Positions 10,209 through 50,923 of a stretch of 63,169 nt of DNA are shown here, piece by piece. The DNA comes from a virus, in IMG/VR virus record IMGVR_UViG_3300043468_000449, positions 1 through 63,169 of that record. One strand, written 5' to 3'. A program made the translations under genes and the position numbers. The notes under the pieces were generated by a model. That model had not been told where the DNA came from and ran no database searches. It saw only the letters and a program-made list of their open reading frames with translations. The stretch's first letter is position 1. Every line of letters begins with the position of its first letter.

Positions 10209-10429
10209 ATATTTTCGTTTTGTCGTTTCTCCAGCATCGCATCTGCATCCCTGAAGGACAGGTCAGCAACTAAACGCGAATCGGCTTGGGAAAATTTATC
10301 ACTCGCTCGATACCCCTGCAAGGCAGAACCTGCGAACCAGTCGCGCATAGACATACCCGAATTGCTTTTGATCAGAGGATTCGTTCCTCCAGTAAAAGGA
10401 AAAGCAGGGTGGTTGACAGGTCGCGCCAT
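10205..10429 (-). CDS. Conserved small phage protein (GMSMRDWFAG type)
   Basis: This 74-aa protein has the pattern GMSMRDWFAGSALQG, then ADLSFRDADAMLEKR, found in many phage early regions (G-M-T/S-x-R-D-x-F-A and A-D-A-M-L). The function is unknown. It overlaps the downstream gene by 4 nt. Confidence 0.6.
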   Translation of the reverse strand: MARPVNHPAFPFTGGTNPLIKSNSGMSMRDWFAGSALQGYRASDKFSQADSRLVADLSFRDADAMLEKRQNENI

Positions 10430-12154: not shown

Positions 12155-15100
12155 TTACTCTATCGGAGATTTCATTCCTGTCAAAGGCGCGGCTGAACCA
12201 ACTGCCGGGGGTTTTAAATCAGATAATAGTTTTTCCGCTTTCGCTAAAGCCACCGCAAGTTTTTGTTTGGTTTTTTCATTCGTAGGATCGACCTCTGATA
12301 ATTCTCGTTTTGTTTTATCGACCTTCAATTCTGCTTTTTCAATTTTCTCCGCTTCTTTCTTGGCATCTTCTTTTTCTTTTTTTCGAGCGGCAACAAGTTG
12401 AGCATACTCTTCTGGAGTTTTTGGTTTTTGAACACCTGTCAAGCCCACCTCTGTGTCATAAGGAAGCAACCTGATTAATTCTTTTTTCTTTGTGCCGTCA
12501 TCTTGATCGATTGTGCGTTCTAACTGGAAAAGCGTTCCGTAATCCAACATCTCTTCGACATTCTCTGCGGCATCTGCGTAGTCAGCAGGTTCAGCACCCG
12601 AAACCTGCGCTCCGTACAATCCAAACAACTCTTTTTCATTGTACCAGAGTGCCGCTTGCATATCGGCAATAGTGATGTCAATTCCTTTTCTGCGGAGTTT
12701 TTTTTGCGCCAGTTCCATTGTCGATTGTTGGAAGTCACGCTCAAGATCGGTGCGAGGCGCGGCAACAGGATCGGCTCGATTTTCTACCCAGTTTTTTGCC
12801 GCCCTACGCAAATCGCTTTTTTGCTTGTATTGTCCGCTACGGAATCGTTTTTCCAATGTAGTAGCCAAATCCAGCATTGCTTGAGGATCATTGAATAGTT
12901 CTTGAATTTCTTCATTGGTTTTTCCAGTCAATTCTGCCTCATCGTAATACTCTACATATTCATAAACCTTTTTTCCGTCTTTCTCTTTTACCTTTTTTAG
13001 TAATGGCTCAAACTTTTCTCCTGCGGCTTTTGCGACATCACTTCGATACTGTTCAATTAGTGCTTTTTGAAAAGCGACATATTGATTTGCCTCTTTAAGT
13101 GGGGCGTGTTGAAAAACATTCCCAAGGATACGATTCCAAGTGCGAGTGTACCACAAGTCAGCAGTCAGCGTAGAATAGTCGCCATGTAGGTTATTGATGA
13201 ACGATCCAATCTTCGGGCCAAACACGCTAAACCCTGTTACCATCTGCTCCGCTTGACCATCAACAGTCAAAGGCTCTCCTTTAAACCATAAATTTTTATT
13301 TTGTTTTAAATATGCATTCCATTCAGAAACTGACATTTTTTTCCTGAATAATTTGTCCAGTTTTTTAATGTCGTTATTCTGTAAAAGTTCATGCAATTTT
13401 AAGAAATTATTTTCAACAGCACGGGTTTCACCGCCGAATGTGCCATACAATTCGCCAACATCTTTTTTAACAAGTTCAGGAAGAGTTTTGCCACCTTCCA
13501 ACAAGAATTGTACCCTCGCCGCCATTTTCCCATTCTCGAAAACATTGTTTCCTTGAGAAGTAATTCCTAGCACCGCATCAAAAATAAACTCTTTATTGGC
13601 ATCATAGTTTTTTGATTTTCGGTCAAGGAACGGGAAGAATTTCGCGTACCTTTCCTTCATTAGTTTTAATGCGGTATCGTACCAACCAATGGCATTCGGT
13701 GCATTTGGGTCTTGCTTCGCTCGCTCAATGTGACCCAAAACCTCGTCTACAATTGTTTCAGAGATGATTTGTCCTGCCCGTGGACTGTAATCTCCCGGCT
13801 CGATAAACCCATCGTCAGCACTACGCTTTTGTAGTGCATACAACAAATCGTCAACTTTTGTTTTTAATTTGCCCTCTTTTGTATAAAAGGAATCTGGAAC
13901 AACGAACTTTTCTGTTCCTTCCAGAATAGGTGTAACTGACCTGCTTAACCCTGTTGCAGGGTACAACTGCTCTCGGATGTAATCTGCAACTTCCTGCCCT
14001 AATCCGTATCGTTCTGCGAATCTGTTCGGGTCGAAAGTGAACCCTTGTCCTGCGAGGACTTTTGCGTAGGGGACAAGAATTGTATCGATGCCCCTTCGGA
14101 GTAATATGGTGAGTCCTCCGGGAGCGGAGTCCCCCCCAACGCCTCGCACTCCTTCCTCCATTCCTCCCTGCTGATTTTGTATATCTGTTTCATTTGTTTG
14201 TTTTCCTGTTAACCAATCTGGAACCCTGACACTCCCATCTTCTGCTGTAAAGTCTGAAGTTGTGTCATAATAAAACGAATCGACAAGAGTATCGTGGAAA
14301 TTTTTAATATTCGCCGCTTTTTGAATTTCAATGAGTTTTTTCCCGAATTCTTTGATCCCATCAAAATTCGCGGCTTTGATGCCTTTGCCATCGACTGTCA
14401 ATGACAACCCATCGATGCCCACTTCTTCCGCTTTTACGAATGCATTTTTGATTTGCTCTTCGGTAAGTTTTTTGTCGTGGACAAGGTAAACAGCAGGCGC
14501 ACCATCGGTGAGTCCTATGCTGGGTTTCCATGCGATCCCGGCATCTTGAGTCATTAAAAATGACAACCATTTGGTCACAGTCTGCGCCTGATCCCAAGTC
14601 ATCCCCGGAGCATTAAACACGAAGCTAGGCTCAACCTCAAATTTCCATGTTCCCAGAATATTGTCGAAATTGATTCCCTGCAACCCAGCCGCATCAACTA
14701 TAAAATCCTTAAATTTTTTAGATTTAAAAATTGTGGTTAATGTCGATTGAAGATCAGGAACCAAAACTCTCCGATCCACCGGGAATTTGAATGGAGGAGG
14801 AGTCATGCCCAGCTTGGCATCATTAATTGCCTTAATAGAACGATCCACCTCGACCATGCGAATTGCATCCCGCAAAGTAAATTCTTTGTCAGGAAGTTCC
14901 TCAAAACCTTCCAAGAGTTTTTTATTCTGTTCGTATATTTCAACATCTCTTTCTTTGAAGGGTTGCTGTTTTGGATCGACATCTTGAATTGCCCACCATG
15001 CTTTGCCGATTGCGGTCAAGGCATCTTTCTTTGCATTTAAATTATCAAGATTTGGATTTAAATAAGACAACAATCTTTCTTTGCGTTGTTCCGCGCTTTC

Positions 15101-18100
15101 CAGCTTCGGCTGAAGTTCAGCTATAGAAGTAAAGTCAAATCCATATCTTCCCGGTTTGCCGCCAATCACAACAGAAAAATCCCCAGCATCTTTCTGCATG
15201 GTTCTTTCAACAGATTTTGGCAAAAATTGAATTGCAGGTGGCATGAATTGAGCAATCGGACCAACAGGCTTATCGTCCTTCTCAAGAATTTTGATTAACT
15301 TGTCATCGAAGACCACATAGTTGCTCGTTCCCTCTCCCGCGCCCCGGCTCAAAGCATCCCAATACCGAATGCCGGGAACCCCTTGCTCCAGCAGAAATTT
15401 AGATGCTTTCGGAGCATCTTCGGCGGGTCTTCCACCAAATGCATTTGTTATGTATACATAAGCCGATTTCCCTGTTATCGATAACGGGTCTGGCATTGGT
15501 TTTTGAAGTCTCTCCAACTCGCCGGGGCGGAATGGTCTTCCACCTAATCGTGTTCCTCTTTGGATAATTGCTTCTCTTGCTTTTTGAGTTTTGTCGAATT
15601 CACTTAAAATTGTAGGAAGAACAGCATCTTGGACTTTTTTGCTTTGTTCACTCAAGGGTTTATCCCAATCCAATAAATCACCTTCTTCAACATCAATATC
15701 AACCTTATACAGGCTACCAACTTGAATTTTGGAAGGGTCTTTTAAACCTTTAACTCCAGCATTGAACCACCAATTTAAAATTTCTTCAGCATAGGCATTG
15801 TCAGTAGCCGCATCTTTTTCATCTTCAAGCATTCTGATTGCACGATCAATAGTTTTACGATCAGGCATCCCTCCACTTTTTCTTGCTTTTAAAGCGTCTG
15901 TTAAAATTCCAAACAAATCAATAATTTGTTGATTTTGAATAACATCTTCACTTGGAGATTCGACTCCATCAATTCTTATGTTTTTTGCTAATTTAGTTTG
16001 GTAGCCTTCTGATACTTGCCTTAAACCTGCAAAATATAATCCCCATCCATAAGCCTGCGCTCCCTCGCCTTCTCCTATTTTTTCAATGCTAAATCTATCA
16101 AAATCGTAAGGAGAACCATGCCATGCAGGAAGATATTGTATTCCCGGTGGTGCAACAACTGCGTTGGAGAATTCTGTTCCACTTTGAATTCGCGAGTTAA
16201 GCGAATCACGATATTGTATTAAATCGTTTGACGCCGATTCAATCTCTTTGAATTGCGAATCAGCAGGCATTTCCTGCACGGGACGCACAGGAGGCTCAAT
16301 ATCGCGCAAAGGCGGAATCATATCGCTAATCCTGCGGTATTGCGTAGGCAGTTCGATGCCTTGCAAGCCTTCTGGTTCAGTAGTTGCGCCTTCAACTTCA
16401 GCAGGCATGAATTGCAACTGCCCTGCGCGAACTACATTCTCCATCTGCGGAGTGATGTTTACTCGCCAGATTGGGGTTGTGTCTCCCTTTCGAGCAAGTT
16501 CTTGAAGTAATTCAGCATCAGTAAAATCATCTATTTTTTTATCAGGTTTTGTAGTAGCAATTTCAGACTTCTCAACCTTGCCACCCATCTTGGATACATA
16601 TTTGCCAATCTCTTTTGGAAGGATCGTGTCGTAGAATCCTTTCATGCCTTCGCCTCCGACATCAAGATCAAGACCTTCAAATTCTGCGCTTGCTAATGAT
16701 GGTTGTGGTGAGGACTTAATTTTTTCAATTGATTGAGCAGAAAGTTCCTTACCAATAAATTCGCTTAATTTTGCTTCAGGAATTTTTTCTTCATTGATTC
16801 TTGATTGACCATCTTTGTATGCACTTAATGCATATGTGTTTTCTCCATCAAGAATTACAACAATAGAGTCAACTTGTTTGCTCAATTTATAGCGTTCAGC
16901 CTGCGTTTCTCCAGTAGTCCAGCCAATCCATTGCTTGCCAGATTCAACGGCATCACGCAATGCTCGTTTGAAGAGTTGTAATGACCAATCTTTGCGGAAT
17001 GGTGCGTCTGGGATTGAGCCGGGAACCTCCCCTGAATTTGCGCTTTTAATCGCTTCTTCTTTTGTTTTTGCCCCAAACCCTACTTGAGTTTTAGAGGCAT
17101 CAAAAACCATCCATTCAGTTCCCGTCTGGCGACCTCCACGATATTCGTATACAGGGACTTCTTCGACAGTCCAACCATCTGGGAGGACATCGCCTTGCCC
17201 TTGGTATCCCTTCTCCCTCCCCGCTTGATGCCGATCAGATTGCAACTCTTCGATAAACAATCCATCGTTGCCTTCAGCATCTGTGCGCTCGTTAAGACGC
17301 ATATGCGCTACATAGTTGGGGATGTCAGGGAAATGAGATGAAGTGTATGATTGATCATCTCGCGAAGCGGCATTGTTCTCGTCTATCCGAATGAATAGTT
17401 GGTCAAGTCTTGCTTGTTGCTCTGGGGTTCTATTATCCGTTTCAAATCTCAATTTTTGATACTCATCCAGTTCGGATTTGGTCAAAAATTTTGATTCTTC
17501 GACTCTTGGCATTGCCATCACAACTTCACGATAGTTTTCACCGCCGGGGAGTTGGTATTTGCCAAATTTAGGAGGTTTAGTTAATCCTTCGCCTTGCAAA
17601 TCTAATTTCTCTGCTCGCGTATTTAAGAATTCATTCTCTCTAAAATACTTTTCAGCAGTCTTTTTGTCGCCACGCCTTTGAGCCTGTTGAGCTAACCTCA
17701 TCACTCGTTCAGCCTCATCGTAAAGCGTATCAGTAGTGCTTTGATCTCTGATGTTCATCAAGCGAATCAACTCATCATACTTCTCTTCGCCAAATGATGG
17801 ATCATCAACGGGATGATCTTTTAGATTTTTATATTCTGCCTCAAGTTCAGCAAGACGATTTGCATCAAATGGTTCTTTGCCGCCAAGTGTTACCTCTTCA
17901 AATTTAACTTGTCCCTCGTCGCGCAGATAATTAAGCAATTCTTGCACGGGAACCTTGCCGTTATTTTCACTTGCAAGTCGGTCGATTGCGTCATTGACTC
18001 CAGACCACTTAACTTCTTCCGCTTTGACATTTTGCGGGTTGTTAATAACTGCCTTCAACTGCTCTGGCGTTGCCATTGCACCACGGAACTTGCTTTGAAT

Positions 18101-21100
18101 TTCCATCTGCAATTTGCTTTGGAATCCACGCTCGCCAGATGGTGCTTCGATTTCGGCAACTTCGGCTGGAAGGAAATTCTTCTTTGCTTTTTCGTAATCT
18201 ACAGGAAGTTTTGGAAGATCACTTGCATCGATTAGTTCTGCCATGTGATCGATTCGCATAGACATAATTGTTCTGTCCATGCTCTTGTTTTTCTCGTCGC
18301 CCTTTCGTTTAGGAATCTTTGTTCGATCAAGATTTAATGCTTCTGTTTCTTTAGTGAATAGATTTAGAAAGTCATTAAATATCGATTTCTTTTGTTCTGC
18401 TACAGCAACATTGTCACTTAACTGATTAGTTCCTTCAGGCTCACCTTTGTCATTATATCCACTACCTTGGATGCCTTTAGACCAATTATCTAAATACTTT
18501 GTAGAAAATTCACTCCAGAATGTTTCTTTGCTTCCGTTCCAAGGAGAAAGTCGATTCGGCATCCGATCTGACCAAGCATTCAACTTCGACATCATTCTGC
18601 CAACTGAAATCGTTGTAACTAGAAAATTGCCTGCTTCGGATAAATGCAATCCAATTGGAACGACATCGTAAATCTTTGGTGAGAATGCTCTGTAGTTACC
18701 TTTATCGTCCATTACTGCGGCATAATCGACAAAGAATCGCGATCCATCTTTTTTGACAATCGCATCGTTTAACTCCAGAAGATATTCTTTAATCTTTAGA
18801 GGCACAATCCCCTCTGGCAATGCTTGAATCGCTTTAATCTGAAGCGGAGTAAAAGTGCCTCGGTAAGTATCGGAACCTTCAGAGACTGCCTCAAATCGCC
18901 CCGGTGTGCCATAGTCGGGCGTGTCGATTGCCTGCTTGAATAGTGTCGCTCGATCTTTCGCGATCTTCTTTAGATCGGCAGGCTTGAGAAGTTTTGGAGT
19001 GATGCCGTCCGCCTCGGTAACAATCTTTTTCGAGATAGCCAGAGTTCCACCTTCGGGAACTTGCAATTGACGCAATTCAACGGGGATTTGCCCATAACCA
19101 TTCAGTCGTTCTTCGCCATCCTTGGTAATGCGCCAAGTGCCTTCAAAAACCGCAGGATCGGTCACATCGACTGGAGTGCCTACAGGATTGCCATCTGCGT
19201 CGAATACCTGCGCCTGAACCTTTGTTGCAAACAATCCAGAGTCCATGCCGTAGCGTTCTGCCGCGATCTTGCTTTTACGAATATCAGCTTTCGAGATAGT
19301 TGCCGTTTCTGGTTGATTTTCAATCGTTGCAAAGTCTCCATTTAAACTCTCCAGCAACCGCATTGCATTTCGAGCGGCACTTTGAACTTCTGGTGGCAGA
19401 TTGGCTTTCGATGCATAGCCGACAACATCTCCAGAAAATCCGAGTCCTAGCAACTTCGTCGTAGCTTTTTTGATCAGGTTGTTTTTAAGTTTTGCCCTTG
19501 CGACATCCAACAAGTGAATGCTTTTTGGATCGATATTTTTACCAAGATTCCGAGAAAGCGTGTTAGAGAACAAGTCTGCAAGAATTTCTTCTTGCATATA
19601 GTCTGCCACATTCTTTCTGCTCAAAGAATTTGTCCCGTAGTCCCAGAGTCCGCTATTTTTTGCAAAGACCTCGATCTGTTTTTTATTGTAATTCTTTAAG
19701 TATGTCTTCTCGTAAAGATCGATCAATTGATCTTCGTTGTAGAGTCCAGTTGTGACTTCTTTAACATTGCCTGCCGCATCTCGGATTTGATTGCTGAATA
19801 GTAATTTTCTTGCTTCAGAAACCGCATCTTGAATTTCTTTGATTCGCAGGATTGCGTGACCTGTTTCGTGATTCAAAGCGTCGATTGGAGTCTCTCCGTA
19901 AATATCAATTCGATTGCGAAGAGCATCCGAATTAATAACAATCGATGGTTGCGCCTGATTGAATACAACATTCTTGACGGCATCGCTAACTTCCATGCCG
20001 GGTCGAAATTCGTTTTGACCTGTTCCACTATAAAATCCCTGCTGTCCTGCAATTTCGTAAATCATCTCGTCAGGCACATCGCGCAATGCAGGATTCTGCC
20101 TGAAATGATTGAAGATTTGATCTGTGCTTAAAATGTGAATGCCAACATTGTTTTGACCCGCTTTAAGCGCACCATTCAGCAAAAGATTATTTCGACCAAG
20201 TGCTGTTAGAAACTGCCTTCCAAATTCGTTTCGAGTCTGAACATTTGCAGTCTTGAGTAACGACAAGGATTTCTTTTCTGCCTCTAGTCTTTTTTCAGCT
20301 TCTTCAATTTTTTTGTTGTCAGGTGACTCGTTTACCAGTTTCTGAACTTCAGCCTCGGTATCTGCTACTCTCTTTGCCTGCCTTCCGATGACCAAGTCCC
20401 AATCGGTCAATTTATCAATCTCACCTCGTGTTTCAGGCGTCGAATCGCGATATGCCTTCAAAGCGTCCATATTGGCTTGCTTTGCCCTCCGAATCTGGAT
20501 CACGGGGTCTTGGCCCACAAACTTGTGATAAGTCTGCTGGACTGCCCTTCCGCCTAAAGAATAAGCCAATCCTTGGCCTACCATAGCCTTTAATTCTTCT
20601 TCGTCGGCAGAATCAATGATTCCAACTGCCAAGCTAATTAAAGTTGGCTCAACTCCCATCCTTGCATATTCACCAATATTAGCAATCGTGTCATCGCCAA
20701 CAAAACGCAGAATGCGTTTAGTAGTATCGCTTACCCTTCCGATTCCTTCGTAATCAACAATGCCTTCATTTTTAACTCTAGATTTTGCTACTTCTAAAGC
20801 CTGCTTCGTTTCAACATATTCATCAGTTCCCTCTGAAAGTGTTTTTAATTTCTGCGTCAAAGTCTTTACTTCATCTTGCTGTTTAGCAATAGCCCCCAAA
20901 GTAGCAAGTGGGCCTACGCTTCCTCCAGCAGATATCCTTCGTGCCGCTTGAACTTCTTTGATAACTTTTGGGATGTCTGCGAGTGTTCGCCCTCCATACT
21001 TCAATCCATACCTAGTTGCCAGCGCACCTAACCCCATTGAAGTCAATGCATTTTCTGGACTCAATTCATATCCAAGTGCCGCGCCGCCAATTGCAGTAAG

Positions 21101-22741
21101 TCCAGTTCCGAGTTTTTGCAATCTCGGACTCCTTTCAATATAATCACCCGTTTTTTCAATTCCTTTTGATACTGCTCCTGCGCCTTGCTCAACCAATCCG
21201 GGTTTTTTCAATGCCTCAAGTCTCTTGAGTTGTTTTGCTTTTAATAGTTCTTGCGCTCGTTTTTCAATCGCATTGATTTGATCATCAGTATAACGCAGTT
21301 TTTGAAAGGTTTTTCGAGCAATAGGAGTCAATTGTCCTGCCGCACGAACAACATTCATTGCATAGCCAACTTGATCAAGTCCAAATGCTTCAGGTAAAGC
21401 TAAATCAGCAAATGCCGCCATTTCTGGATCGGTTTCTGGAATTGATTTTTTAACATCATCGACTACAGAAATAATTGAACTTTCAATGTCAGCTTCGCGT
21501 TTAGATGCCGCTTCCTCTGCACTCAAATCAGGATACATAATCATGTATTCCTTAACTGATGGATGTGTAAGACTAGAAAATGATTTTAATGTTGGAACAT
21601 AATAAGTATCAACAAAACGCTTCCATTCGTTTGGTTGTGCTTTTAACCATTTTGCTTGAGCGGTATCTACTTCGTTTCTTGCGCTCCATCGATTATAGGC
21701 ATCTTCTTTAGATAGAAATCCAAATTTTTCACTTACATTATCCCATGTTTGCATCCCTCCACTTCCAACCTTTTGTGCAGTCCATGTTATAGATGGAGGC
21801 AATGCCGCAATTGGAGCAGTCAAAGAATATGGAACTTGCTTTGCCTTGTATCTCTTTTCTTCAAATTCTTTGTCGATACTAGCACTCTGTTCTGGAGTTA
21901 GATATTCTTTGATTTTAGCAAGATACTTTGCGTCAGTATAAGCATCAGGATTTGGTTGCTCTCCACCTTTTACTGGAGTATTAGCAATCTGCCATGCTCG
22001 TTTACGCCAGCTCTCAACTTCTGCTTTTTTGTCTTCTGGTAATAACTTCTCTGCCGCTTTTGCTTCAGCGTAATCAGATGTCATCCCAACTAATGCTGGC
22101 GCACCTTGAACTACGGCTTTTCCCGCACCATATGCTCCTTGCTCTAAAGATTTAACTAATGTCTCAAATATATCTCCAGCATCTTCGGTAACATTGATAC
22201 CTAAATTAAACCATTCCTCTGCATTCGTTGGAACCTTTCCGTATGGAGATGATTCTCTTTTTTGTCTCTCAAATTCAAATATTTGACGATTTTGCTTTTC
22301 TGTAAAAGTTACATCAGGTCGTATTTTTTTAAATTCGTATAAATTTTCAGGATCAAGTGTCTCAATTAATTGCCTATCTTCTAGCGTAAATTGTTCATCA
22401 GGTTTTTCACCAATTACAGTAGATACAATGTTAATTGGTTTTGAGAAGTCGATCTCTGGCTCCTTTTCTGTAATAGGAGCAGGAGTAGGAGCAGGAGCAG
22501 GAGCAGGAGCAGGTGTAGGCGCAGAAATGGTAGCACCCTCTTCTTTTGGTTCTTCAACTGCCTGCGGAATTTCTTCCTTCGGCTTTTCTTCAGTAGGTTG
22601 TTGAGGAGATAAAACAGAATCAATTTCTGACATTAATGAGTCAGCATCGTCTTCTTTATCTTCCTTCGGTTGCGTTGATTCAGTTTGATCTCCAAGAACA
22701 TTATCAATGTCTTTGAGCAATTCATCAATTCCTTCAGCCAT
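12155..22741 (-). CDS. 3528-aa polyvalent protein with zincin motif and ADP-ribosyltransferase domain
   Basis: This 10.6-kb uninterrupted ORF is 17% of the genome. Features in order: repeated amphipathic motif (about 5-18 and 36-46), Pro/Ala linker (about 73-89), helical regions, HETGH zincin motif (H958-H962), an LPD-type region at about 1810-2070 ([13 protein letters not shown], then [11 protein letters not shown]), and an ART-PolyVal ADP-ribosyltransferase from about 2203 to 2490 ([13 protein letters not shown]2208; [29 protein letters not shown]). The C-terminal conserved region is at about 3171-3206 ([10 protein letters not shown], then [16 protein letters not shown]). Such proteins are thought to be packaged and injected to modify host proteins. 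It overlaps the 564-aa gene as TAATG. Confidence 0.8.
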
Positions 22742-24435
22742 TATTTTTTAAGTTTGATTTGAATTTCACGCAATTGTGCCTTTAAAGCCTCTTTATCGTT
22801 TCCTTCTGGAATTTGTTTAATTTGATTAACTAATTGTCTAGCTGAATTCACTAAATTTTCCGATTCAGGAACCTGTTCTGTAACTTTAAAATTTTCTATA
22901 TCGTATCCAGCTTTTTCTAAATTTCCTATTGTTATTTTTTTTCTGGTTTGCAAAGTATTTAACAAATCATCCATTAATATTTTAGCTACTTTTGGGTCTC
23001 TTTGAATGTTTGGAATTAATGCTTTATATCTACGAACATCATCATCCGTAAGAACTCCAACCTCACCAAATACACCTCTAGCCAACCCCGGAGTTAAACT
23101 ATCAACCAAATTATTAAGCCTTATTGCAAGACTATCATAGCCAACGCCACCAATCAATTGCCTTAATCTGCCAACCATAGGCCCACTTTTATTTCCAACT
23201 TCCGACAATACACCTTGAATATCTTTCAATGTCGCTTCAGCAGAATCAATATTATTGAACTTTTCTAAATGTGCTTGAAGAAGTTTATGTTTTTCTACTC
23301 CTTTCCCTTTTTCTTCAGCAAGTTCTTTAGCGGTTTTTCTTTTTGGAGGATTAACCCTGAATCCTCTTCGTCCTTTTTTAGTAATTACTTGAATTTCTGC
23401 CTCGTTATATTCAGGCCCAAAATGTTCGGCAAGTTGTTTTTGAGATTTCAAAGCGTTTTCATAATTCGCATAATCATTCACAAGATTGCTAATTTGAGTT
23501 TCAACAGGTTGTTGTGGAACTCGCTTTACTTGCTGTCTTTCTTTTTCTGGAAGTGGAACTTTAGTCAAAGCACCCATACCAAGTGGCATCTCGCCTGTTT
23601 CCGCATAAAACTTCTCGGCAATCGCAGAACGCTCTTGCGGAGTCATCAATGACATTGACCTTGTATTAATATCTACACTAGGTTGCGCCTGAACTAGTGC
23701 TTTGCCAGCAACAACATCTGTGGACATTGGCGCAATAATTGGCGCAAGACTTGTGCTTGTCAATTGATCATATTGTTTTTGCGGAGATGCTTCGGCAGTC
23801 AATTCAGAAAGTGGTTTACTCAATAAAGCCTGCACATCTTGTTCAGTTGGGCCAACTGAAGATAATGGGTTTAATACATCTTCAGTTTCTTCTGGCAATC
23901 CTAAATCCCATATTCCAGAAGGCAATTCTTCATCTGTAACATCATAGGCATCCATGTCAGATAAATTTTGTTCATCTGCAAATCCACCTTGATTGCCATC
24001 TTCATCTACAAATCCTTCTTCACCTTCTTCTTGAGCTTTCTTTTTTCTTTCTTCAATTTGAAGTTTAAGATTTTCTAGTTGAGCGTTTTTATACTCTTCT
24101 TTTTGCTTGTCTTCTTCAGCACCTTTAGAACCTCTTGCAATGGCAACAGCAAGTCGATTATCTCTATCAAGTTGTTCTTTTGTTTTTTGTGCTTTAGCTT
24201 TTCTATCATCAACAAATGCCGCAGTAATGCCTTTCAACGCATCACCAATGCCTTCTTTCAAACCACTCGCCCATGCATTGGAAACCAGTTCTGGTTGCTC
24301 GGATTTAACCTCTAAAAACTTTTGAGGCTGAAATTGCAAAGCGGTGTGAATCGCTTTAACTGGTCGCATTCCTTCTAATGGAGATGCAGAACGAATTGTA
24401 GCGAATTGCGGTGTGAAAGAGTATGATTCAGGCAT
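22741..24435 (-). CDS. Putative virion/ejection protein with coiled-coil region
   Basis: This 564-aa protein has an N-terminal segment with EQPELVSNAWASGLKEGIGD, a motif also found in the 144-aa protein at 26358. A charged coiled-coil follows (about 85-140) and a Pro-rich middle. The C-terminal part has GPMVGRLRQLIGG, then LTPGLARGVFGEVGVLTDDD, a pattern common in phage internal or DNA-transfer proteins. It sits between the MGG proteins and the polyvalent protein and overlaps both by TAATG. A role as internal core or ejection protein is inference. Confidence 0.6.
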   Translation of the reverse strand: MPESYSFTPQFATIRSASPLEGMRPVKAIHTALQFQPQKFLEVKSEQPELVSNAWASGLKEGIGDALKGITAAFVDDRKAKAQKTKEQLDRDNRLAVAIARGSKGAEEDKQKEEYKNAQLENLKLQIEERKKKAQEEGEEGFVDEDGNQGGFADEQNLSDMDAYDVTDEELPSGIWDLGLPEETEDVLNPLSSVGPTEQDVQALLSKPLSELTAEASPQKQYDQLTSTSLAPIIAPMSTDVVAGKALVQAQPSVDINTRSMSLMTPQERSAIAEKFYAETGEMPLGMGALTKVPLPEKERQQVKRVPQQPVETQISNLVNDYANYENALKSQKQLAEHFGPEYNEAEIQVITKKGRRGFRVNPPKRKTAKELAEEKGKGVEKHKLLQAHLEKFNNIDSAEATLKDIQGVLSEVGNKSGPMVGRLRQLIGGVGYDSLAIRLNNLVDSLTPGLARGVFGEVGVLTDDDVRRYKALIPNIQRDPKVAKILMDDLLNTLQTRKKITIGNLEKAGYDIENFKVTEQVPESENLVNSARQLVNQIKQIPEGNDKEALKAQLREIQIKLKK

Positions 24436-24965
24436 TACATTCCTCCAAATTGAAGTCCTTGAGCGGACGGGAGTGAGAAGTTAGTGTTTTGTTGAGTTCC
24501 GCCAACGCCAGCATTGGATGCCAGAATAGGTGGAATCCCCATTTGCATAGAAGATGGCGCATTAGTCGAAGCAGGCCCAGCAACGCCGCCTGCCGCCGCA
24601 ATCTTTTGCTGTTGCGCGGAACCTACATTGTAGCCACTTCCGCCTGCGGTAGTGCTGGCGGCATTCTGCGCGGCTTGCTGGTCGAGTCGTTGCTGATTCT
24701 GCGCGGCACTAGTGAAATCTTTTTGAATCTGTGTTTCTGCCTGCCTGCGGAAGTCTGCGGCTTTTTGATTTTCAGCTTGGATGTTCTGTTCACGAATCCT
24801 TGCCGCTTCTTCGTCATCTCTTTTTTTCTTTGCGGCATCTGCGGCTTTTCTGGCATCATCCATTTGTTTCCGCATAGCCGCTTGCTGTGCGGCAATCTGC
24901 GATGAATAGTCAGGTTGACTGCTTCCGCCGCCACTTTTTTTGCCTCCACCTTTACTTCCGCCCAT
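24435..24965 (-). CDS. MGG-type putative internal virion protein (FGG tag)
   Basis: This 176-aa protein starts MGGSKGGGKKSGGGSS, has a long Ala/Gln/Lys coiled coil (about 25-105) and ends with NFSLPSAQGLQFGGM. The same ending pattern, F-[ST]-[LM]-P...[LI]-[QK]-F-G-G, occurs in the next two upstream proteins. Gly-rich starts and Gln-rich helices are typical of podovirus internal core proteins. The gene overlaps the 564-aa gene by TAATG. Confidence 0.6.
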   Translation of the reverse strand: MGGSKGGGKKSGGGSSQPDYSSQIAAQQAAMRKQMDDARKAADAAKKKRDDEEAARIREQNIQAENQKAADFRRQAETQIQKDFTSAAQNQQRLDQQAAQNAASTTAGGSGYNVGSAQQQKIAAAGGVAGPASTNAPSSMQMGIPPILASNAGVGGTQQNTNFSLPSAQGLQFGGM

Positions 24966-24967
24966 AA

Positions 24968-25468
24968 TTAAGTTCCTCCGAATTGTAGCCCGGTAGTCTT
25001 GGGCATTGTGAATACATTAGTAGTTGTCGGCTGATTTGCTTCCGTAGTAGGAAGATTTGCAGTCCCTCCCATTCCAACCAAAGCGCGTTGACGAGCGGCA
25101 TTTAGATTGTATCCAGCACCAGTCGCCGCCGCTCCTGCGGACAATGCCGCTTGACGCTCTTGCTCCTGCTTTTGCTGATCCGCCATCGTTTGTGCGCTAG
25201 AGATTGCAGAAAGTTCTTGTTGCGCCTTCGACTCTTGTTGCCTACGAAGTTGTGCGGCGGCGGCATTCTGGCTTTCAATTGCCGCTTGCTTTTGTTGTTC
25301 TTCAAGTCGCCTGCGCTCTTCCTCATAGGCTTGCTGTTGCTGTTGATACATCTGCATCTGCTGTTGCATCTGCTGATTGAACATTGCCTGTTGCATCTGC
25401 ATTTCTTGCTGACGCAAGGCTTGCTCTGCTTTTATTTGACTTTTGCTGGGGCCGCCTCCTCCACCCAT
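24968..25468 (-). CDS. MGG-type putative internal virion protein (FGG tag)
   Basis: This 166-aa protein starts MGGGGGPSKSQIK and is mostly Gln-rich helix (MQQAMFNQQMQQQMQMYQQQ). It ends with NVFTMPKTTGLQFGGT, which shares the FGG tag with both adjacent proteins. It is likely a paralogue of the 176-aa neighbour: both have a helix followed by a GAGYN or GSGYN segment (AAATGAGYNLNAA; TTAGGSGYNVGSA). Confidence 0.6.
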   Translation of the reverse strand: MGGGGGPSKSQIKAEQALRQQEMQMQQAMFNQQMQQQMQMYQQQQQAYEEERRRLEEQQKQAAIESQNAAAAQLRRQQESKAQQELSAISSAQTMADQQKQEQERQAALSAGAAATGAGYNLNAARQRALVGMGGTANLPTTEANQPTTTNVFTMPKTTGLQFGGT

Positions 25469-25495
25469 AGTTTTATTTTCCTTTCAGTTTATTGT

Positions 25496-26077
25496 TTATG
25501 CCCCGCCGAATTTAATACTCGACATATCAGGCAATGAAAATGTATTGGCAGTTGCAACTTTTGGAGTTGTTGTTGTTGGTTTGTATGTGAAATCGATTGG
25601 CAAATCAGACGGCATAGTTGTATCACTAGTTTTAGTTTGTGCAAGTGTTGCAGTCGTAGGTGATGTTGCCGCAGTTGCAGTAGTTGTAGCAGGTGAAGTT
25701 GTTGCCGCAGTAGTCGTTGGATAGGTCGGAGATTGCGTTCTTAAATTAGCAAGTTTTTCGCGTTGCTGTGCTTGCATATTTTGCAAGACTTGTTGCTGTT
25801 GATGAAAGTATTCAGGATTGGATGACAATCCTTTTGTCATTGGAGCATATGAACTTTGCTTTGGACTAATCCAGTTCATTAATGGCGCACCATAGTTTTT
25901 ATCAACAGTTAACCACTTGCCTCCACTTGTTGGCAAAACATTAAGCGGATCCATTATATTCAGAGGATCAACAACTTTTCGCAATTTAGCCGAATACTTG
26001 CCTAGTCCTACTTGGTGTAGTGGATCAAGATTTTTTGTTACAAATGTGCCAACAGATTTAGTGAATGAACCACCCAT
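25496..26077 (-). CDS. MGG-type putative internal virion protein (FGG tag)
   Basis: This 193-aa protein starts MGGSFTKSVGTFVTKNLDPL and ends with NTFSLPDMSSIKFGGA, the third copy of the FGG tag. The middle has a short Gln-rich helix (FHQQQQVLQNMQAQQREK) and a Thr/Ala-rich linker. It differs from the two downstream proteins in its N-terminal half. Confidence 0.55.
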   Translation of the reverse strand: MGGSFTKSVGTFVTKNLDPLHQVGLGKYSAKLRKVVDPLNIMDPLNVLPTSGGKWLTVDKNYGAPLMNWISPKQSSYAPMTKGLSSNPEYFHQQQQVLQNMQAQQREKLANLRTQSPTYPTTTAATTSPATTTATAATSPTTATLAQTKTSDTTMPSDLPIDFTYKPTTTTPKVATANTFSLPDMSSIKFGGA

Positions 26078-26079
26078 AA

Positions 26080-26361
26080 TTATAATCCTATTTTTGACCT
26101 AGCTTCCAAGCAAAGTTTCGATCCGGGTTCAAATAATCTACACGCAGTAGGTCGGCAATTATAAACAGAACACTTAACTGCGGTTCCAACTTCACCTACT
26201 AAAGCTACGCACCTGTTATTTTCAGTCTTCATCAGAGGATAGTCAGTTCGTTGCATTTCTTGCGGGATGCCAGTTGCATCTGATCGATCTCGTTTGAAGA
26301 TCGGCCATGACCACTTAAAACTGCAACAAGCTCCGCATTTTTCACAATCATAGTTTGTCAC
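26080..26361 (-). CDS. YkgJ-type cysteine-cluster (putative Fe-S/Zn) protein
   Basis: This 93-aa protein has the YkgJ/UPF0153 cysteine pattern: C6, C9, C12, C13 near the start (YDCEKCGACC), then C51, C64, C69, C74 and C84, with the typical NNRCVAL and CSVYNCRPTACRLFEPG. These proteins are predicted to bind Fe-S or Zn; their substrates are unknown. It lies between two MGG genes in the ejection block, near a PAPS-reductase-like gene. It overlaps the 144-aa gene by 4 nt. Confidence 0.75.
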   Translation of the reverse strand: MTNYDCEKCGACCSFKWSWPIFKRDRSDATGIPQEMQRTDYPLMKTENNRCVALVGEVGTAVKCSVYNCRPTACRLFEPGSKLCLEARSKIGL

Positions 26362-26792
26362 ATTCCGTACATTTTTCCAACCCCAGAAAGCGCACTAGTT
26401 GCCAATGTTTTTCCTGCATTTGCCCATGCGTTACTGACTAATTCAGGGTTCGTGCTATGGATTTCAAATGGATTCATAACCATAAAATTTAAGGCATCTG
26501 GATTATTTTTTAGTTTTTCATTCATCTCTAGTTGTTTTTGCATTTCCAGATATTTCTTATACATTTCAGATTGATTTTGACTCGTCAAAGCGGCAGATGC
26601 TGGACTACTGAAATCAATATCGCTAATACCCTGTGCTAATGCGCCAAGACCTTGACCTATTCTTTTATTTTGCGCTTGCTGTGCATCAAATGCCGCTAGG
26701 TCTGCGGCGGTTGCTTGAGTTGCTTTAGGGACTGTGCCTGCCGCAAATTGCGCTTCGCCTATTTTATTTGTTCCTGTGTTTGCTCCACCCAT
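26358..26792 (-). CDS. MGG-type putative internal virion protein
   Basis: This 144-aa protein starts MGGANTGTNKIGEAQFAAGT, has a helix-rich centre, and contains NPELVSNAWANAGKTLATS near the C-terminus. The PELVSNAWA motif is shared with the 564-aa protein but the DNA coding for it differs. It lacks the FGG tag. It starts one base after the PAPS-reductase stop. Confidence 0.55.
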   Translation of the reverse strand: MGGANTGTNKIGEAQFAAGTVPKATQATAADLAAFDAQQAQNKRIGQGLGALAQGISDIDFSSPASAALTSQNQSEMYKKYLEMQKQLEMNEKLKNNPDALNFMVMNPFEIHSTNPELVSNAWANAGKTLATSALSGVGKMYGM

Positions 26793-26793
26793 A

Positions 26794-27627
26794 TTATTTC
26801 TCCCAAGTTACTGGTTTGAATCCTAAATCTGGTATCACGATATCTTCGTATGGTGCAAGATGTGATATATTTGTCACAGTTGCTTTTAACTTTGGGCAAT
26901 ACACTTGATTGCCTTGATGTCGATCTACACAATTTAAGCAAGTCGGATAGAAGTCTGCGTTCAAAGATTTATCAGGATTGTTTGTCCACCCAGATTTTGT
27001 TTTAATATATCGGGTTGGATCGGCTTTTACTTTGTTATCTTCTAGATATTGATAAATGTCGCGATCAGTCCAATCGCGCATAAGGTAAAGCGAAACGGGA
27101 CTGCCATCAGCATGGCGAATATCCTGCGAAATAGGCACATGACCCTTGATCAAATCAGTATCGGAATTCTTTGTTCCAATCCAAACAGACTCCCACGGCC
27201 AATTAAAGGTTCCTGTGGGTCGTTTTAGGAAGTCATCCACACCGCACATGAATTTCTCGCCTTTCTTTGGACGCTCGGTTCCTAATGACAAAACAACTGC
27301 TTTGGTTCCCCATTGGAAGTAGTGCAGAAGATCAAAGCGCACCTCGCCAGTTTCTGTATCAGGACCATCTGCTAATGCAAATCGGCTTGCAGGGTAGTCA
27401 AAGACAGTCAAATCCCAGTCTCGGATCAATTGATCTGAATACGCATAACGCTCGCGAAATTTCGGTTGCCTAAATTGAATTACAGGGACATCGATTCCAG
27501 CTTGAAATTTGAGCAAATGAAGCATCGCAGTCGAGTCTTTGCCGCCTGACCACAGAACGACAGAATTGGGCCAATTTTTCGCCCATAACTTGGCTTTCTC
27601 GATTGTTTCGTTAATAAGTTGATCCAT
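26794..27627 (-). CDS. PAPS reductase-family (adenine nucleotide alpha hydrolase) protein
   Basis: This 277-aa enzyme has the PP-loop SGGKDST (27-33) binding ATP or PAPS. Downstream are FMCGVDDFLKRPTGTFNWP and the C-terminal Cys set FYPTCLNCVDRHQGNQVYCP, forms seen in phage PAPS-reductase homologues. Family members act in sulfate assimilation, tRNA thiolation and DNA phosphorothioation (DndC). Which of these applies here cannot be told. It is flanked on both sides by MGG virion genes, with a YkgJ-like protein nearby. Confidence 0.75.
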   Translation of the reverse strand: MDQLINETIEKAKLWAKNWPNSVVLWSGGKDSTAMLHLLKFQAGIDVPVIQFRQPKFRERYAYSDQLIRDWDLTVFDYPASRFALADGPDTETGEVRFDLLHYFQWGTKAVVLSLGTERPKKGEKFMCGVDDFLKRPTGTFNWPWESVWIGTKNSDTDLIKGHVPISQDIRHADGSPVSLYLMRDWTDRDIYQYLEDNKVKADPTRYIKTKSGWTNNPDKSLNADFYPTCLNCVDRHQGNQVYCPKLKATVTNISHLAPYEDIVIPDLGFKPVTWEK

Positions 27628-27644: not shown

Positions 27645-28517
27645 TTATATGATAATCGCCGCCGCACCGATTGCCGCACCACCAAGTGCCGCACCACTTT
27701 CAATCATCTTCCCTTTTGCGGAATTTTGGCTAATTGCATTATTTACTGCCGCATTGTATAAAGATTGATCATAAGCCTGACGATTTTGTCTTTGAACATT
27801 AGATAGATTTAAAATCTCTCCCATATTTTTACTTAAATAGTCAAAAGTATTCTGTTGTGCTTCTCCAAGTCCAGTCCCTAATTGTTGCGCTCCTGCAAAA
27901 ATATTCTTCTGCCAATCCGCCATTGCGCCAAGGTTCTGCGCTTCTTGTCCCATCCTCGCGCCAATTAAAGTGCCGGGATCAAGTCCCCCAGTCGGGCGTT
28001 GCTGGCTAGAAACGAACCTATTTCGCAGTTCAATATCTTCCAGCATCCGCTTGCGTCCCTCTTCGGTGGACACATCTGCAAGCATGGATCGACCAAAAGA
28101 TGACGAAGGATCGACTCCAGTTCCGCTGACCGCAGAAATGCCTTTATTTTTCAACCAAGCATCCATGCGGTTTTTAAAAGACTCGTCAGAGGTCACCGCT
28201 TCGATTTGCTCTGGCAATTGATACCGCATACGAGCGGTGGCTGGAGAAAGCAACTCTTCGCCTTGCCTTGTTCTTGCCTCATTCGATAAACCAAATTGCG
28301 CGGCTTGCCGAGAAGTCTGCTCTGCATCGAAATCCTGCATCAATGGTTGCGTCTGCCGATACAGATCAAATAACTGACTTTTAGTTCCAATGTCAGCAAG
28401 TTGACCTTCTAATGCGCCTTGACCATATTGAAATTTTTGCGCTAGAATAGCATTATCTGTTTGATAATCAGGTCGGCTCATGTATTGACCCGGATTGACT
28501 GTTGCGGCTCCACCCAT
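27645..28517 (-). CDS. MGG-type putative internal virion protein
   Basis: This 290-aa protein starts MGGAATVNPGQYMSRPDYQT and consists of helices (GALEGQLADIGTKSQLFDLY, then LGTGLGEAQQNTFDYLSKN), ending in a small-residue apolar segment (GAALGGAAIGAAAIII). The hydrophobic end could insert into membranes. Such architecture suits a DNA-ejection protein; the function is inferred from position. Confidence 0.6.
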   Translation of the reverse strand: MGGAATVNPGQYMSRPDYQTDNAILAQKFQYGQGALEGQLADIGTKSQLFDLYRQTQPLMQDFDAEQTSRQAAQFGLSNEARTRQGEELLSPATARMRYQLPEQIEAVTSDESFKNRMDAWLKNKGISAVSGTGVDPSSSFGRSMLADVSTEEGRKRMLEDIELRNRFVSSQQRPTGGLDPGTLIGARMGQEAQNLGAMADWQKNIFAGAQQLGTGLGEAQQNTFDYLSKNMGEILNLSNVQRQNRQAYDQSLYNAAVNNAISQNSAKGKMIESGAALGGAAIGAAAIII

Positions 28518-29174: not shown

Positions 29175-31304
29175 TTAGCAGGGATTTTTTGCCTTGAATT
29201 CTTGCGCGGCATTGGTTGCGGCTTGCTCTGCCAGCGTTTCAGCCTCTTCTCGCGCATGAGCATAGCTAACTGTGGAAATATACGAGGCAGATGCGGTAGC
29301 AGAAATCGTCTTGCTAGAACTTGTGCAATTTACAGTCACAGTCTTATAAACTTTGGCACTCCAGTTTTCTTGTGACAAGGATAAATTTTCATACGGACTT
29401 TCTTTCAAGTCGATAGTAAAATTGTCACCATTTTGACCTACAACGCACGATTTGGTTTCAATATATTGAGGAATTCCAGTAGCTTTTTCGCTCCAAGGAT
29501 CAAGAAAAATCCTAACGATTTCGACGCCCATTTGACCGCACCATTCAATTAATACAGAGAAAGCCTTGTCTACATCGTTAGTTAATGGGCTTTCGCAAGT
29601 CTCGTATGTAGCTAATCTATTTGCTGATTCTGTAATTAAACGACGATATTGCGTATTCAGAAATCCAGCTTTTTCTACTTGGCTTTCGTAATCTGTGCCT
29701 CTCCATTGGTAATCATTAGTAACTGCTAAAATCCTAGTATTTAGAATTGATAAATACCTTCCTTTTGATCCCTTATAGCTTACTTTTACATCTACAGTTC
29801 CGCCGATTTCAGTAGCTTCAATTTCGGAATAAATAAACTGCTTTAAATCCATTCCGTCTCCAAGCAATGGAGTTTCAAGCTGGCAATAAATTCGATTGTA
29901 TAAATCAGTTGTAGTTCCATCAGGATTTATCTGAAGATAACTGTCATACTTTTCTGGCATGAAAGCCTCCCACAAATGATTGTATGAACCATCTGCGGTT
30001 GGTGCATAATCGATAGAGAATTGAAAGCACCGATTCTGACTATCAATCTTTCCTGTTGTCCATTGAACAGGTCGAGTGCCTGTCCAAACTCCCGCCCATG
30101 CTGGTTGCCGTCCACTCCCCCACTCGGCGGCAGGAGCATAGTCCATAACCATTGTGTCTGTGTTTAACTTTGACAAGTATGGAACGGAATACATCAAGTA
30201 GTTTTCAAACGACACAGCACAAATATTCGATGGGTTTCCATCTAAAAATCGCTTTGTTCGCGCCATCTCGATATCTTTAAATAATACTTGAGAACTTAAA
30301 TACGATGCCGCCGCCACATCCGCCGCAACCAATCCGCCATCAGAATACCACCACATTTGTCCTGCTTGGAATGCAATTGACCGAGGCGCAACGCATCCAA
30401 CAGTTGGATAAAGCGTATTCTGAAAATTAGTAGTTGTAGTCCATTGCGTCCTATCCAGCACACCAGATGCTAGTGAGTAAGTAGCTCGATCTGTGAAAAC
30501 AATTAGCCGAGTAGATGTATCTTGACCAACATAAGAAACAAGACCAGTCACAGGTCGCACAAACGCGAAATCGCCCCTGCCTGTGCCTGTCGTGCGTTCC
30601 TTCCAGCTAGTTGGATCGCCAAGGTCACTAGCAAGAACGATATTTTTTTCAGCAATCCACATCCTGTTGCCGCTATAAGCCATGTGTGTGCCTGTAGGAA
30701 TGCCGTGATCTTGCGTTCCTTGTTTGTCGCTACCATCCCACCATGCTGGCGCAGAGATGCCATCCTGTATCATTACAATTGTGTGAGCAGGCGTTACTAA
30801 TTCGTTTTCTGATGTCGCAAGATTTGCTGTTTTTGTGGCAAGCGCAAAGAAAAGATTTTCAACATCAGGATCGAACTTAATGTTGTTCAGTTTGTAGTCA
30901 TTCCAGTTTTTAGGCTGAACTAGTGGGAAAGGTGCGTAGTAAACATTACCATCTACTGCAAAGACCATGTAGCTTAATTCTGTTGCAATGACTCCTTCGC
31001 CATTTACATCGAAAATCTTTGCAGGAACTACTCGATCAACTCCATTTTCCTCGCGGCTAAATGATGCGTATTTCTGTTTGTTTGCCTGAAATATAATGCC
31101 ACCTTGCAGGTTTCCGGGTGGCAGAGAAAGGCGCATTGCGTAGCCGGGTCGAGTCTGCGCGATTCCACCTCGAATAGAAAGGTTAGTTCCCCACTTAAAC
31201 TGGTTTTCAGGCAATGCCCAAGGATTGCGAACAGAATTGACTCCCTGCGTCCATCCTGTGGTGATCTTTTGAAGTCTACCTGATGTGATATTTTCACTTT
31301 TCAT
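29175..31304 (-). CDS. Tail nozzle/stabilisation-like protein
   Basis: This 709-aa protein has the pattern of podovirus nozzle or tail-stabilisation proteins: an N-terminal GWTQGVNSVRNPWALPENQF, a segment NRMWIAEKNIVLASDLGDPT and beta-rich repeats through the middle. The last 50 residues (CTSSSKTISATASASYISTV, then EAETLAEQAATNAAQEFKAK) resemble the DUF5977 type tail module. It overlaps the large adaptor-like gene by TAATG. Short-tail placement is inferred, as no tape measure or sheath gene is seen. Confidence 0.55.
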   Translation of the reverse strand: MKSENITSGRLQKITTGWTQGVNSVRNPWALPENQFKWGTNLSIRGGIAQTRPGYAMRLSLPPGNLQGGIIFQANKQKYASFSREENGVDRVVPAKIFDVNGEGVIATELSYMVFAVDGNVYYAPFPLVQPKNWNDYKLNNIKFDPDVENLFFALATKTANLATSENELVTPAHTIVMIQDGISAPAWWDGSDKQGTQDHGIPTGTHMAYSGNRMWIAEKNIVLASDLGDPTSWKERTTGTGRGDFAFVRPVTGLVSYVGQDTSTRLIVFTDRATYSLASGVLDRTQWTTTTNFQNTLYPTVGCVAPRSIAFQAGQMWWYSDGGLVAADVAAASYLSSQVLFKDIEMARTKRFLDGNPSNICAVSFENYLMYSVPYLSKLNTDTMVMDYAPAAEWGSGRQPAWAGVWTGTRPVQWTTGKIDSQNRCFQFSIDYAPTADGSYNHLWEAFMPEKYDSYLQINPDGTTTDLYNRIYCQLETPLLGDGMDLKQFIYSEIEATEIGGTVDVKVSYKGSKGRYLSILNTRILAVTNDYQWRGTDYESQVEKAGFLNTQYRRLITESANRLATYETCESPLTNDVDKAFSVLIEWCGQMGVEIVRIFLDPWSEKATGIPQYIETKSCVVGQNGDNFTIDLKESPYENLSLSQENWSAKVYKTVTVNCTSSSKTISATASASYISTVSYAHAREEAETLAEQAATNAAQEFKAKNPC

Positions 31305-42405: not shown

Positions 42406-43878
42406 TTATAAATTGTTTGGTATGAATGCCGCTTGTTTCGAGCAAACGATAATTGTTGAAGAATATGTTATTTGGGCATAAGCGAAAACATAACGAGTCC
42501 CATCAGAATATGGAAATTGCGCGCTCCATGTTCCGTTTCCATTGTTTGTAGTCGTTGCGGAAACCCAAGTCCTGCTCATTGGATCAGCAGTTACAAGCGC
42601 ATAGTAAAATTGAACTGCTGTTACATCTTCTGGTTGAGATGGCGAAACTGTTGCCTTCGCAGTTCCAATCGAAACAATACTTGGAATTGTGTTTGGATTA
42701 GAAGGCCAAGTGATTGCAGAACCTTTTAGATACTTGTCAAACCACAGGCGAACATCCTGCTCAAATCCAGTAATGTCATGCGATGCATTAGCCTTAAAAG
42801 CATAGCTTCCTTGGACTGGAGTTATTTCAAAGTTGCGGAATCCTCGATCAAATTGACCATGAAAGTCATTCGTTGACATCATCCACAACATTGGGTTCCT
42901 AGCGTATTTTGCGTAGGCTTGGCATTCCAGAGTTGAGATATAAAGATTATTTCCGTCTGAAAACGGAGGCTCCGAATATGGAATGTTATACAACCAAACG
43001 GAGTTTGTTTTCCAATAATGAATCCATCCATTCCCATATTGAGCCACACAACATTTAATATCTGGGTCGATATTCATGTTGTAAGCAATCTGACCACCCC
43101 AGCTATTCCCGTAGAAGCCGATCTTGGTAATGTCAATGTCGGCGGTTAGAGTTTTGGTATACGCAAGAACCCTGCGAGGCATGGCGAACCAATAATACAT
43201 ATCTTGGTTGCGGACATCCTCAATAGTCGCAACAGATGCTTGGTTGGTATAGTTCGCGTTGGGATTCGTTACTTGGTTCAGCCGATTCAAAGCCGCTGGA
43301 TAAAGCGTCATCAAGGTGGTTGGATAACTATAAGTCCCATTGAAAGTTCCGCGCCAATCGTATTGTATTACTGCATAACCTAGATTTGCGTAAGTTGTAA
43401 AATCATCTACGGATGCGCCCCAGCCATTTGAGAAAATAAAACAAGGAAGGTTTCCCGATCCGCGAAGCGATGCCTTGACTTGGTATTTAACATACACACG
43501 AATCAGATAGCCGTTGATCGGCATATCAATGAAAGAATTTTGCGTGAATACTCCGTTTAATGTTGATGCGCCAATAATCGTTTCATTGAACGCTCCAGTA
43601 TTGGGATTGTAGTTGTTGTAAAGAGAACCAACATCCCAGACGCTCAAAGGGTTCGGAGTTACTGGCGTATTAGTGTCAGTCCTAACCCAGCTTCCGTTTG
43701 AGGCATAGGCAATCGCTTGATTGTTTACACCTTGCTTGCCGAAACCTATTCCATCCGTGCAATAGACTTGCGTTCCATTTGAAGAAGAAACAGAAAGTTC
43801 ATTAACTGGCAGTTGGACTAGACCTCCCGTTGTGGCATAGTCTAATTTGCGTGTAAATGGATTGAACTTAAACCCCAT
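42406..43878 (-). CDS. Tail fibre with alpha/beta-hydrolase (esterase) domain
   Basis: From ATG 43878 this is 490 aa. The N-terminus MGFKFNPFTRKLDYATTGG matches the attachment peptide of the 615-aa fibre. A hydrolase of the acetyl-xylan esterase/cephalosporin deacetylase type follows, with GFYGNSWGGQIAY (nucleophile elbow G-x-S-x-G-G), DVRNQDMYYWFAMPRRVLAY and a late KANASHDITGFE (His candidate). It could deacetylate capsule or O-antigen. A further 11-residue start is possible but overlaps more. Confidence 0.72.
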   Translation of the reverse strand: MGFKFNPFTRKLDYATTGGLVQLPVNELSVSSSNGTQVYCTDGIGFGKQGVNNQAIAYASNGSWVRTDTNTPVTPNPLSVWDVGSLYNNYNPNTGAFNETIIGASTLNGVFTQNSFIDMPINGYLIRVYVKYQVKASLRGSGNLPCFIFSNGWGASVDDFTTYANLGYAVIQYDWRGTFNGTYSYPTTLMTLYPAALNRLNQVTNPNANYTNQASVATIEDVRNQDMYYWFAMPRRVLAYTKTLTADIDITKIGFYGNSWGGQIAYNMNIDPDIKCCVAQYGNGWIHYWKTNSVWLYNIPYSEPPFSDGNNLYISTLECQAYAKYARNPMLWMMSTNDFHGQFDRGFRNFEITPVQGSYAFKANASHDITGFEQDVRLWFDKYLKGSAITWPSNPNTIPSIVSIGTAKATVSPSQPEDVTAVQFYYALVTADPMSRTWVSATTTNNGNGTWSAQFPYSDGTRYVFAYAQITYSSTIIVCSKQAAFIPNNL

Positions 43879-44032
43879 CGCTCGGTCTTTCTGGCAGAGA
43901 ATGTAAATCAATCTCGCTGGCTAATTTCGCTTGAGTCCCAGCGGGAGGTTGCCAATCTTCAAGATTGCCATTCCAGACCACAAGGTTAACCAACCATCCG
44001 CCTTCTTTATCAATTATTGCGTAAGTGTCCAT
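43868..44032 (-). CDS. Hypothetical small protein
   Basis: This 54-aa protein (MDTYAIIDKEGGWLVNLVVW, then NGNLEDWQPPAGTQAKL) starts after a TAATATG junction with the upstream fibre gene. Similar short proteins accompany fibre genes in phages, sometimes as assembly chaperones; the role here is inferred. An earlier start extends into low-quality sequence. Confidence 0.55.
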   Translation of the reverse strand: MDTYAIIDKEGGWLVNLVVWNGNLEDWQPPAGTQAKLASEIDLHSLPERPSDGV

Positions 44033-50635: not shown

Positions 50636-50923
50636 TTAGTAGTTGATTTTACCTTCTGCGTTTACTTTGCCATGATATCGTTTTGCCCACTCATCTGCTT
50701 GCGATACTGTTTTGAATGATGGGTATTTATCAATCCCATATTGTTTTGCAGTATTAAATGCATCTCTGTCTGATAATTGTTTTCCTTCTACCATTGTTGG
50801 GATGACATACTGCCTGTCATCAATTCCGAATGTTCCCAACTTCACATTGCTTTCGCTCCCATCTGGATTTTTTACAGATGGATGTTTTGTAGGAAAACCT
50901 TTATAAGTTGCACTACCGCCCAT
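50636..50923 (-). CDS. Conserved small phage protein (MGG start)
   Basis: This 95-aa protein starts MGGSATYKGFPTKHPSVKNP and contains SNVKLGTFGIDDRQYVIPTM and YGIDKYPSFKTVSQADEWAK, a pattern seen in many phage structural regions. Function unknown. The MGG start matches the ejection-block proteins elsewhere in the genome. Confidence 0.6.
   Translation of the reverse strand: MGGSATYKGFPTKHPSVKNPDGSESNVKLGTFGIDDRQYVIPTMVEGKQLSDRDAFNTAKQYGIDKYPSFKTVSQADEWAKRYHGKVNAEGKINY

Follow-up and report, generated by a model that had tools for sequence, protein, structure and literature searches.

Why should three consecutive viral genes, whose products differ over much of their length, end in the same few residues? 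The question is raised by IMG/VR record IMGVR_UViG_3300043468_000449, which comes from an uncultured virus, is 63,169 bases long and was analysed at its full length (the window). Three adjoining minus-strand open reading frames (ORFs) in it encode proteins of 176, 166 and 193 amino acids (aa) that share a 16-residue C-terminal pattern, N-x-F-x-[LMV]-P-x4-[LI]-x-F-G-G-x, hereafter called the tag. We consider it reasonably probable that this ending is a modular C-terminal docking peptide. The reading is supported by conservation of the tag at the amino-acid level, its occurrence in one slot of one lineage and its presence on unrelated bodies.

A C-terminal tag in one slot of one lineage

The 176-aa ORF (24435-24965, minus strand, as are all tagged ORFs of the window) ends in NTNFSLPSAQGLQFGGM, with its tag, TNFSLPSAQGLQFGGM, at 24438-24485. 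The 166-aa ORF (24968-25468) ends in TNVFTMPKTTGLQFGGT (tag NVFTMPKTTGLQFGGT, 24971-25018) and the 193-aa ORF (25496-26077) in ANTFSLPDMSSIKFGGA (tag NTFSLPDMSSIKFGGA, 25499-25546). Based on the ORF list and clustering, together with a structure model of the 166-aa protein and hhalign comparison of the 193-aa protein, the first two are assigned to type A (MGG start, Q/A-rich helical body and flexible C-terminal tail) and the third to type B, in which an N-terminal VVDPLNIMDPLNVLP module is followed by a T/A/P-rich linker. Among the 650 window ORFs of at least 30 aa, these three are the only ones to end in [FYW]GG plus zero to three residues. The common FGG ending of the original prediction is indeed present on the minus strand and unique in the window, and the MGG start claimed for all three proteins was likewise seen on each. 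MGG starts are not confined to the tagged proteins, as untagged 144-aa and 290-aa ORFs and a 95-aa ORF (50636-50923) also begin in this way.

Relatives were collected from IMG/VR using the 709-aa neighbour of the tagged genes as the query, and the best 80 of 214 were kept. An unbiased set was then defined as those relatives with at least 4.5 kb downstream of the 709-aa gene (n = 36), picked mainly via that gene and irrespective of the tag; the 166-aa protein had additionally recovered one of them, L002. In 34 of the 36, the same block encodes between one and three genuine tagged proteins. The other two records stop about 5.0 kb downstream and may be cut off, because the tagged gene of another relative, L053, starts 5.2 kb downstream. 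Across the unbiased set, conservation of the tag residues N, F, P, L, F, G and G is between 92 and 100%, and the entropy averages 1.17 bits in the tag versus 1.95 bits in the body. The tag forms the last 16 residues in every case. One cluster kept it in 53/53 proteins and the other cluster in 13/14, with a degenerate end, ...LTFGS, in the fourteenth.

Sixteen records of 60-71 kb, some of which themselves came from a tag scan, were searched with a relaxed pattern, which matched 30 times, with one to three tagged proteins per record and all matches on a single strand within each. The reversed pattern gave 0 matches in the same records; this control and the uniqueness of the three window ORFs rule out a chance origin of the tag. 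When 2.9 million viral contigs were scanned with a stricter pattern, 176 of the 178 matches listed belonged to this lineage, and the remaining two (L172 and L241) look like chance. Since the stricter pattern fixes several residues, these matches are uninformative on residue conservation, which was taken from the unbiased set. The tag is real and is confined to one slot of one lineage. A pattern search of viral sequences, proposed as a check on the original prediction, led to the same genome block of that lineage.

In 84,980 cellular genomes the pattern was matched 23 times; base composition predicts about 11 matches. Among the 23, a single clear C-terminal tag of the lineage, AASNKFTLPSASGINFGGF, was found in L293, a 4.3-kb contig binned in a Chitinophagaceae metagenome-assembled genome, which is possibly a weak hint at the host or else a binning error. 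A similar RQLNLFTLPDYFGLRFGGRW-like stretch occurs in an open frame of about 250 codons in L284, L291, L300 and L303 (Rhodoferax, Comamonadaceae and Hylemonella). These were rejected as tags: the "stop" of the pattern is there TGG (Trp), hence no C-terminus.

All genuine tags of the unbiased set have precisely one residue after GG, which would suit a ubiquitin-precursor-like end that is trimmed and conjugated. Yet no E1-, E2- or JAB-like family was found among the Pfam-scanned window proteins (part of the ORFs), and the 166-aa protein is modelled as a long helix, not a ubiquitin-like fold, so that we give processing of this kind scarcely any credence. Disordered hydrophobic C-terminal tails can also act as protease tags, as with ssrA, and a host or phage protease might accordingly recognise the ending as a signal for degradation or regulation. 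Its confinement to one late-block slot and the strict 16-residue pattern suit an assembly role better, and no result pointed to a protease, which makes such a signal very improbable.

FGG codons and the start of the next gene

The codon run TTY-GGA-GGN contains GGAGG, and the gene that follows a tagged gene often starts within a few bases. In the window, GGAGGA lies within the FGG codons of the 176-aa gene (24441-24446, minus strand), where sequence and a codon test place it as a putative Shine-Dalgarno sequence for the 564-aa gene (ATG at 24435). It also lies within those of the 166-aa gene (24974-24979, minus strand), similarly placed for the 176-aa gene (ATG at 24965). In the 193-aa tag the FGG codons are TTC GGC GGG, without a Shine-Dalgarno sequence, and a separate Shine-Dalgarno-like AAAGGA for the 166-aa gene lies downstream of that tag (25479-25484, minus strand).

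The same relation is seen across the lineage. GGAGG or AGGAG occurs in the last 15 nt of 90/138 tagged genes whose next start is at most 8 nt away, compared with 1/20 among those with 15 nt or more to the next start, and in the latter FGG is kept with GGC or GGT codons (Fisher p = 2e-7, which is indicative only, the sequences being interrelated). On this codon evidence, the FGG codons double as a predicted Shine-Dalgarno sequence for a closely following gene. It could be argued that FGG is nothing but a by-product of translation signalling, encoded solely because GGAGG serves the next, overlapping gene; the 90/138 count and the first two window tags agree with this. FGG is nevertheless retained at the longer distances and in the 193-aa gene, which has its separate Shine-Dalgarno-like site further down, and the N-x-F-x-x-P-x4-L part of the tag is left unexplained. 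GGAGG is not present whenever FGG is, and the by-product was rejected as a sufficient explanation, being barely conceivable. Within the tag, Phe, Pro and Leu/Ile are each specified by varying codons, which indicates that selection acts on the amino acids. FGG stays while its codons change with distance, and is thus kept as protein, with codons tuned to the DNA-level need.

Tagged bodies and the proposed docking peptide

The bodies of the three window proteins had been predicted to differ, the alternative being that full-length paralogues had simply inherited the tag. For one pair the alternative applies. The 176- and 166-aa proteins cluster together, are 32% identical in alignment and have a common G-x-G-Y-N-[VL] region; as paralogues, they inherited their common tag. 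The claim of differing bodies stands for the 193-aa protein, which has an unrelated N-terminal module followed by a low-complexity linker. Comparison of type A and type B bodies by hhalign, with the tag removed, found similarity only at MGG, and full-length paralogy of all three was rejected.

Among the relatives, tagged bodies stripped of their last 22 residues form about 20 groups without BLAST similarity. Since several of the singleton groups are of low complexity and might belong, distantly, to type A, we count, cautiously, about ten or more further body types that carry the tag. They include proteins with an LTVGEIVIP-type N-terminus (L080 and L228), one with a hydrophobic N-terminus (L167) and a cl36 type. 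The tagged proteins at L080:15698-16513 and in L228 (tag at 10333, minus strand) begin with MADILEEIEDAGRSTDNVVGHLTVGEIVIP or similar, and this domain had no match among phage records. The tagged proteins gave no significant match to named PHROG or Pfam families.

In three hybrid proteins a type B N-terminus precedes a type A body, indicating that modules have been exchanged. The tag may be of common ancestry, the bodies having been swapped, which is compatible with a function. Inheritance might even be the whole explanation, with one ancestor duplicated, the bodies diverged or the N-termini swapped, and the C-terminus the best-conserved part of a single family. The clear paralogy of the 176/166-aa pair and the hybrids favour this, as does the adjoining position of the tagged genes, which is expected of tandem duplicates. 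It is opposed by the profiles of types A and B, alike at MGG alone, and by the LTVGEIVIP-type, hydrophobic and cl36 bodies, which look unrelated; ancestry of the tag by itself would still need a function to maintain it. We regard inheritance alone as doubtful, while taking it as the most serious of the alternatives.

The 166-aa protein, modelled from an alignment of 43 sequences, consists of a single long helix (9-116) followed by a low-confidence tail that includes the tag, and this tail may be a free end suited to docking. In the most likely reading, several small, mostly helical or disordered proteins from one late-block slot bear the tag on a flexible tail, and the tag would bind a common site on a virion component, such as the portal, the internal core, a scaffold or the inner capsid. 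Different tagged proteins would in this way be loaded together into or onto the particle via a common receptor, and would probably be internal or ejected. A separate receptor would be unnecessary if the tag paired with its own or a sister tagged protein in a hetero-oligomeric helical bundle or fibre. The tagged proteins are co-encoded, two or three in many genomes, and type A at least is predicted to be helical; such self-assembly is nevertheless unlikely, as several 60-71 kb records encode just one tagged protein and the differing bodies would all require the same pairing surface.

Several points weigh against a docking peptide. Between the tags of one genome the variable positions do not co-vary (709 of 2000 permutations reach the observed value), such tags being no more alike than expected, and there is hence no sign of co-evolution with a common partner. 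Searches of 50,697 phage records turned up no cultured relative, with relatives of the terminase and of the 709-, 805-, 176- and 193-aa proteins all absent from them. The virion location of the tagged proteins would follow from neighbouring genes, namely tail-fibre genes and two genes with weak family matches, and the AlphaFold model of the 709-aa neighbour has a pLDDT of 34. The original prediction of a packaging, docking or ejection signal nonetheless retains its core, one peptide kept at the amino-acid level on unrelated bodies in one block of one lineage, and loses part of its initial basis, as two of the three window proteins are paralogues. Sequence cannot separate packaging, docking and ejection from one another.

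Genomic neighbourhood and known loading signals

The genes around the slot lie on the minus strand and were characterised from the ORF list with clustering or profile matches. Directly downstream is the untagged, poorly conserved 564-aa protein (22741-24435), and beyond it a block partner, a 3528-aa polyvalent-type protein (12155-22741) that weakly matches ART-PolyVal as well as an "endolysin" PHROG and contains a HETGH metalloprotease-like motif. The untagged 144-aa MGG protein (26358-26792) is the upstream neighbour of the slot, followed by the untagged 290-aa MGG protein (27645-28517), a conserved neighbour with a hydrophobic C-terminus, and the conserved 709-aa protein used as the lineage query (29175-31304), whose family weakly matches PHROG 511, "internal virion protein", in 15/34 members. 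The window also carries terminase and tail-fibre genes. The tail-fibre genes and the weak PHROG 511 and ART-PolyVal matches suggest that the block is late and virion-related.

Other features of these neighbours were observed. A second motif is common to two proteins, as NPELVSNAWANAGK near the end of the 144-aa protein and QPELVSNAWASGLK near the start of the 564-aa protein, with looser versions in relatives (SGEEKVSQGWADA and QQELVSMGAAKG). In a clustering that preferred MGG starts, 60/61 proteins grouped with the 290-aa protein and 42/42 grouped with the 144-aa protein begin with MGG, and the Gly codons of this start varied. A PAPS-reductase-like protein and a CxxCxxCC metal-binding protein (26794-27627 and 26080-26361, respectively) lie inside the virion-like block, and 42406-43911, near the tail-fibre genes, weakly matches Peptidase S9 (prolyl oligopeptidase). 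A 129-aa protein had been suspected by eye to be a GNAT/T7 gp13 protein, and the 290-aa protein to be gp14; PHROG and PDB sequence searches gave no support to either.

Known loading signals offer several comparisons. The capsid-targeting sequence (CTS) of phage T4 is N-terminal and is removed by the prohead protease gp21. It is a short terminal stretch, the sole common part of the diverse small proteins IPI-IPIII, and directs them into the head (PMC3012670). The tag, too, is a short conserved terminal sequence on otherwise diverse proteins of one phage, but it is C-terminal and unrelated in sequence. In DarB of phage P1, whose packaging signal is N-terminal, a short terminal stretch is enough to bring a foreign protein into the head (PMC9024508); again the position differs from that of the tag. 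Encapsulin family 1 targeting peptides are short, C-terminal and found on different cargo, which they load into an HK97-fold shell (PMC8346489). The tag resembles them as a short C-terminal peptide on differing proteins, whereas encapsulins are bacterial compartments with enzyme cargo and another motif, and the present bodies are those of a phage and include no recognised enzyme. No encapsulin shell gene was matched in Pfam or PHROG among the scanned proteins of the window, a phage genome with terminase and tail-fibre genes. Because position or setting differs, we do not assign the tag to the T4, P1 or encapsulin systems.

The genomic setting appears similar to that of podovirus ejection proteins (T7 gp14/15/16 and P22 gp7/16/20). 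Infectivity requires the last five C-terminal residues of T7 gp16 (PMC8954989). None of the papers searched described a C-terminal motif shared by several ejection proteins. Unlike those proteins, the tagged ones lack a significant PHROG or Pfam match, and just the 709-aa neighbour matches PHROG 511. In function, the tag is best read as working like the N-terminal CTS of T4, from the C-terminus.

In its fullest form, this reading would give tailed phages a transferable C-terminal peptide for virion sorting, one label on ten or more unrelated bodies throughout an uncultured lineage, which would load fast-changing accessory proteins and whose codons would double as a ribosome-binding site. We put this forward tentatively, as a proposal with slightly less than an even chance of being right. 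The head-loading labels known from T4 and P1 are N-terminal, and a common C-terminal label with a tight consensus differs from them. The tag also offers a clear case in which one codon run is both a protein motif and a putative ribosome-binding site. If the proposal is true, packaged proteins would be predictable from sequence in a lineage for which no cultured member was found, and the tag would give laboratories a new means of directing chosen cargo into phage-derived shells.
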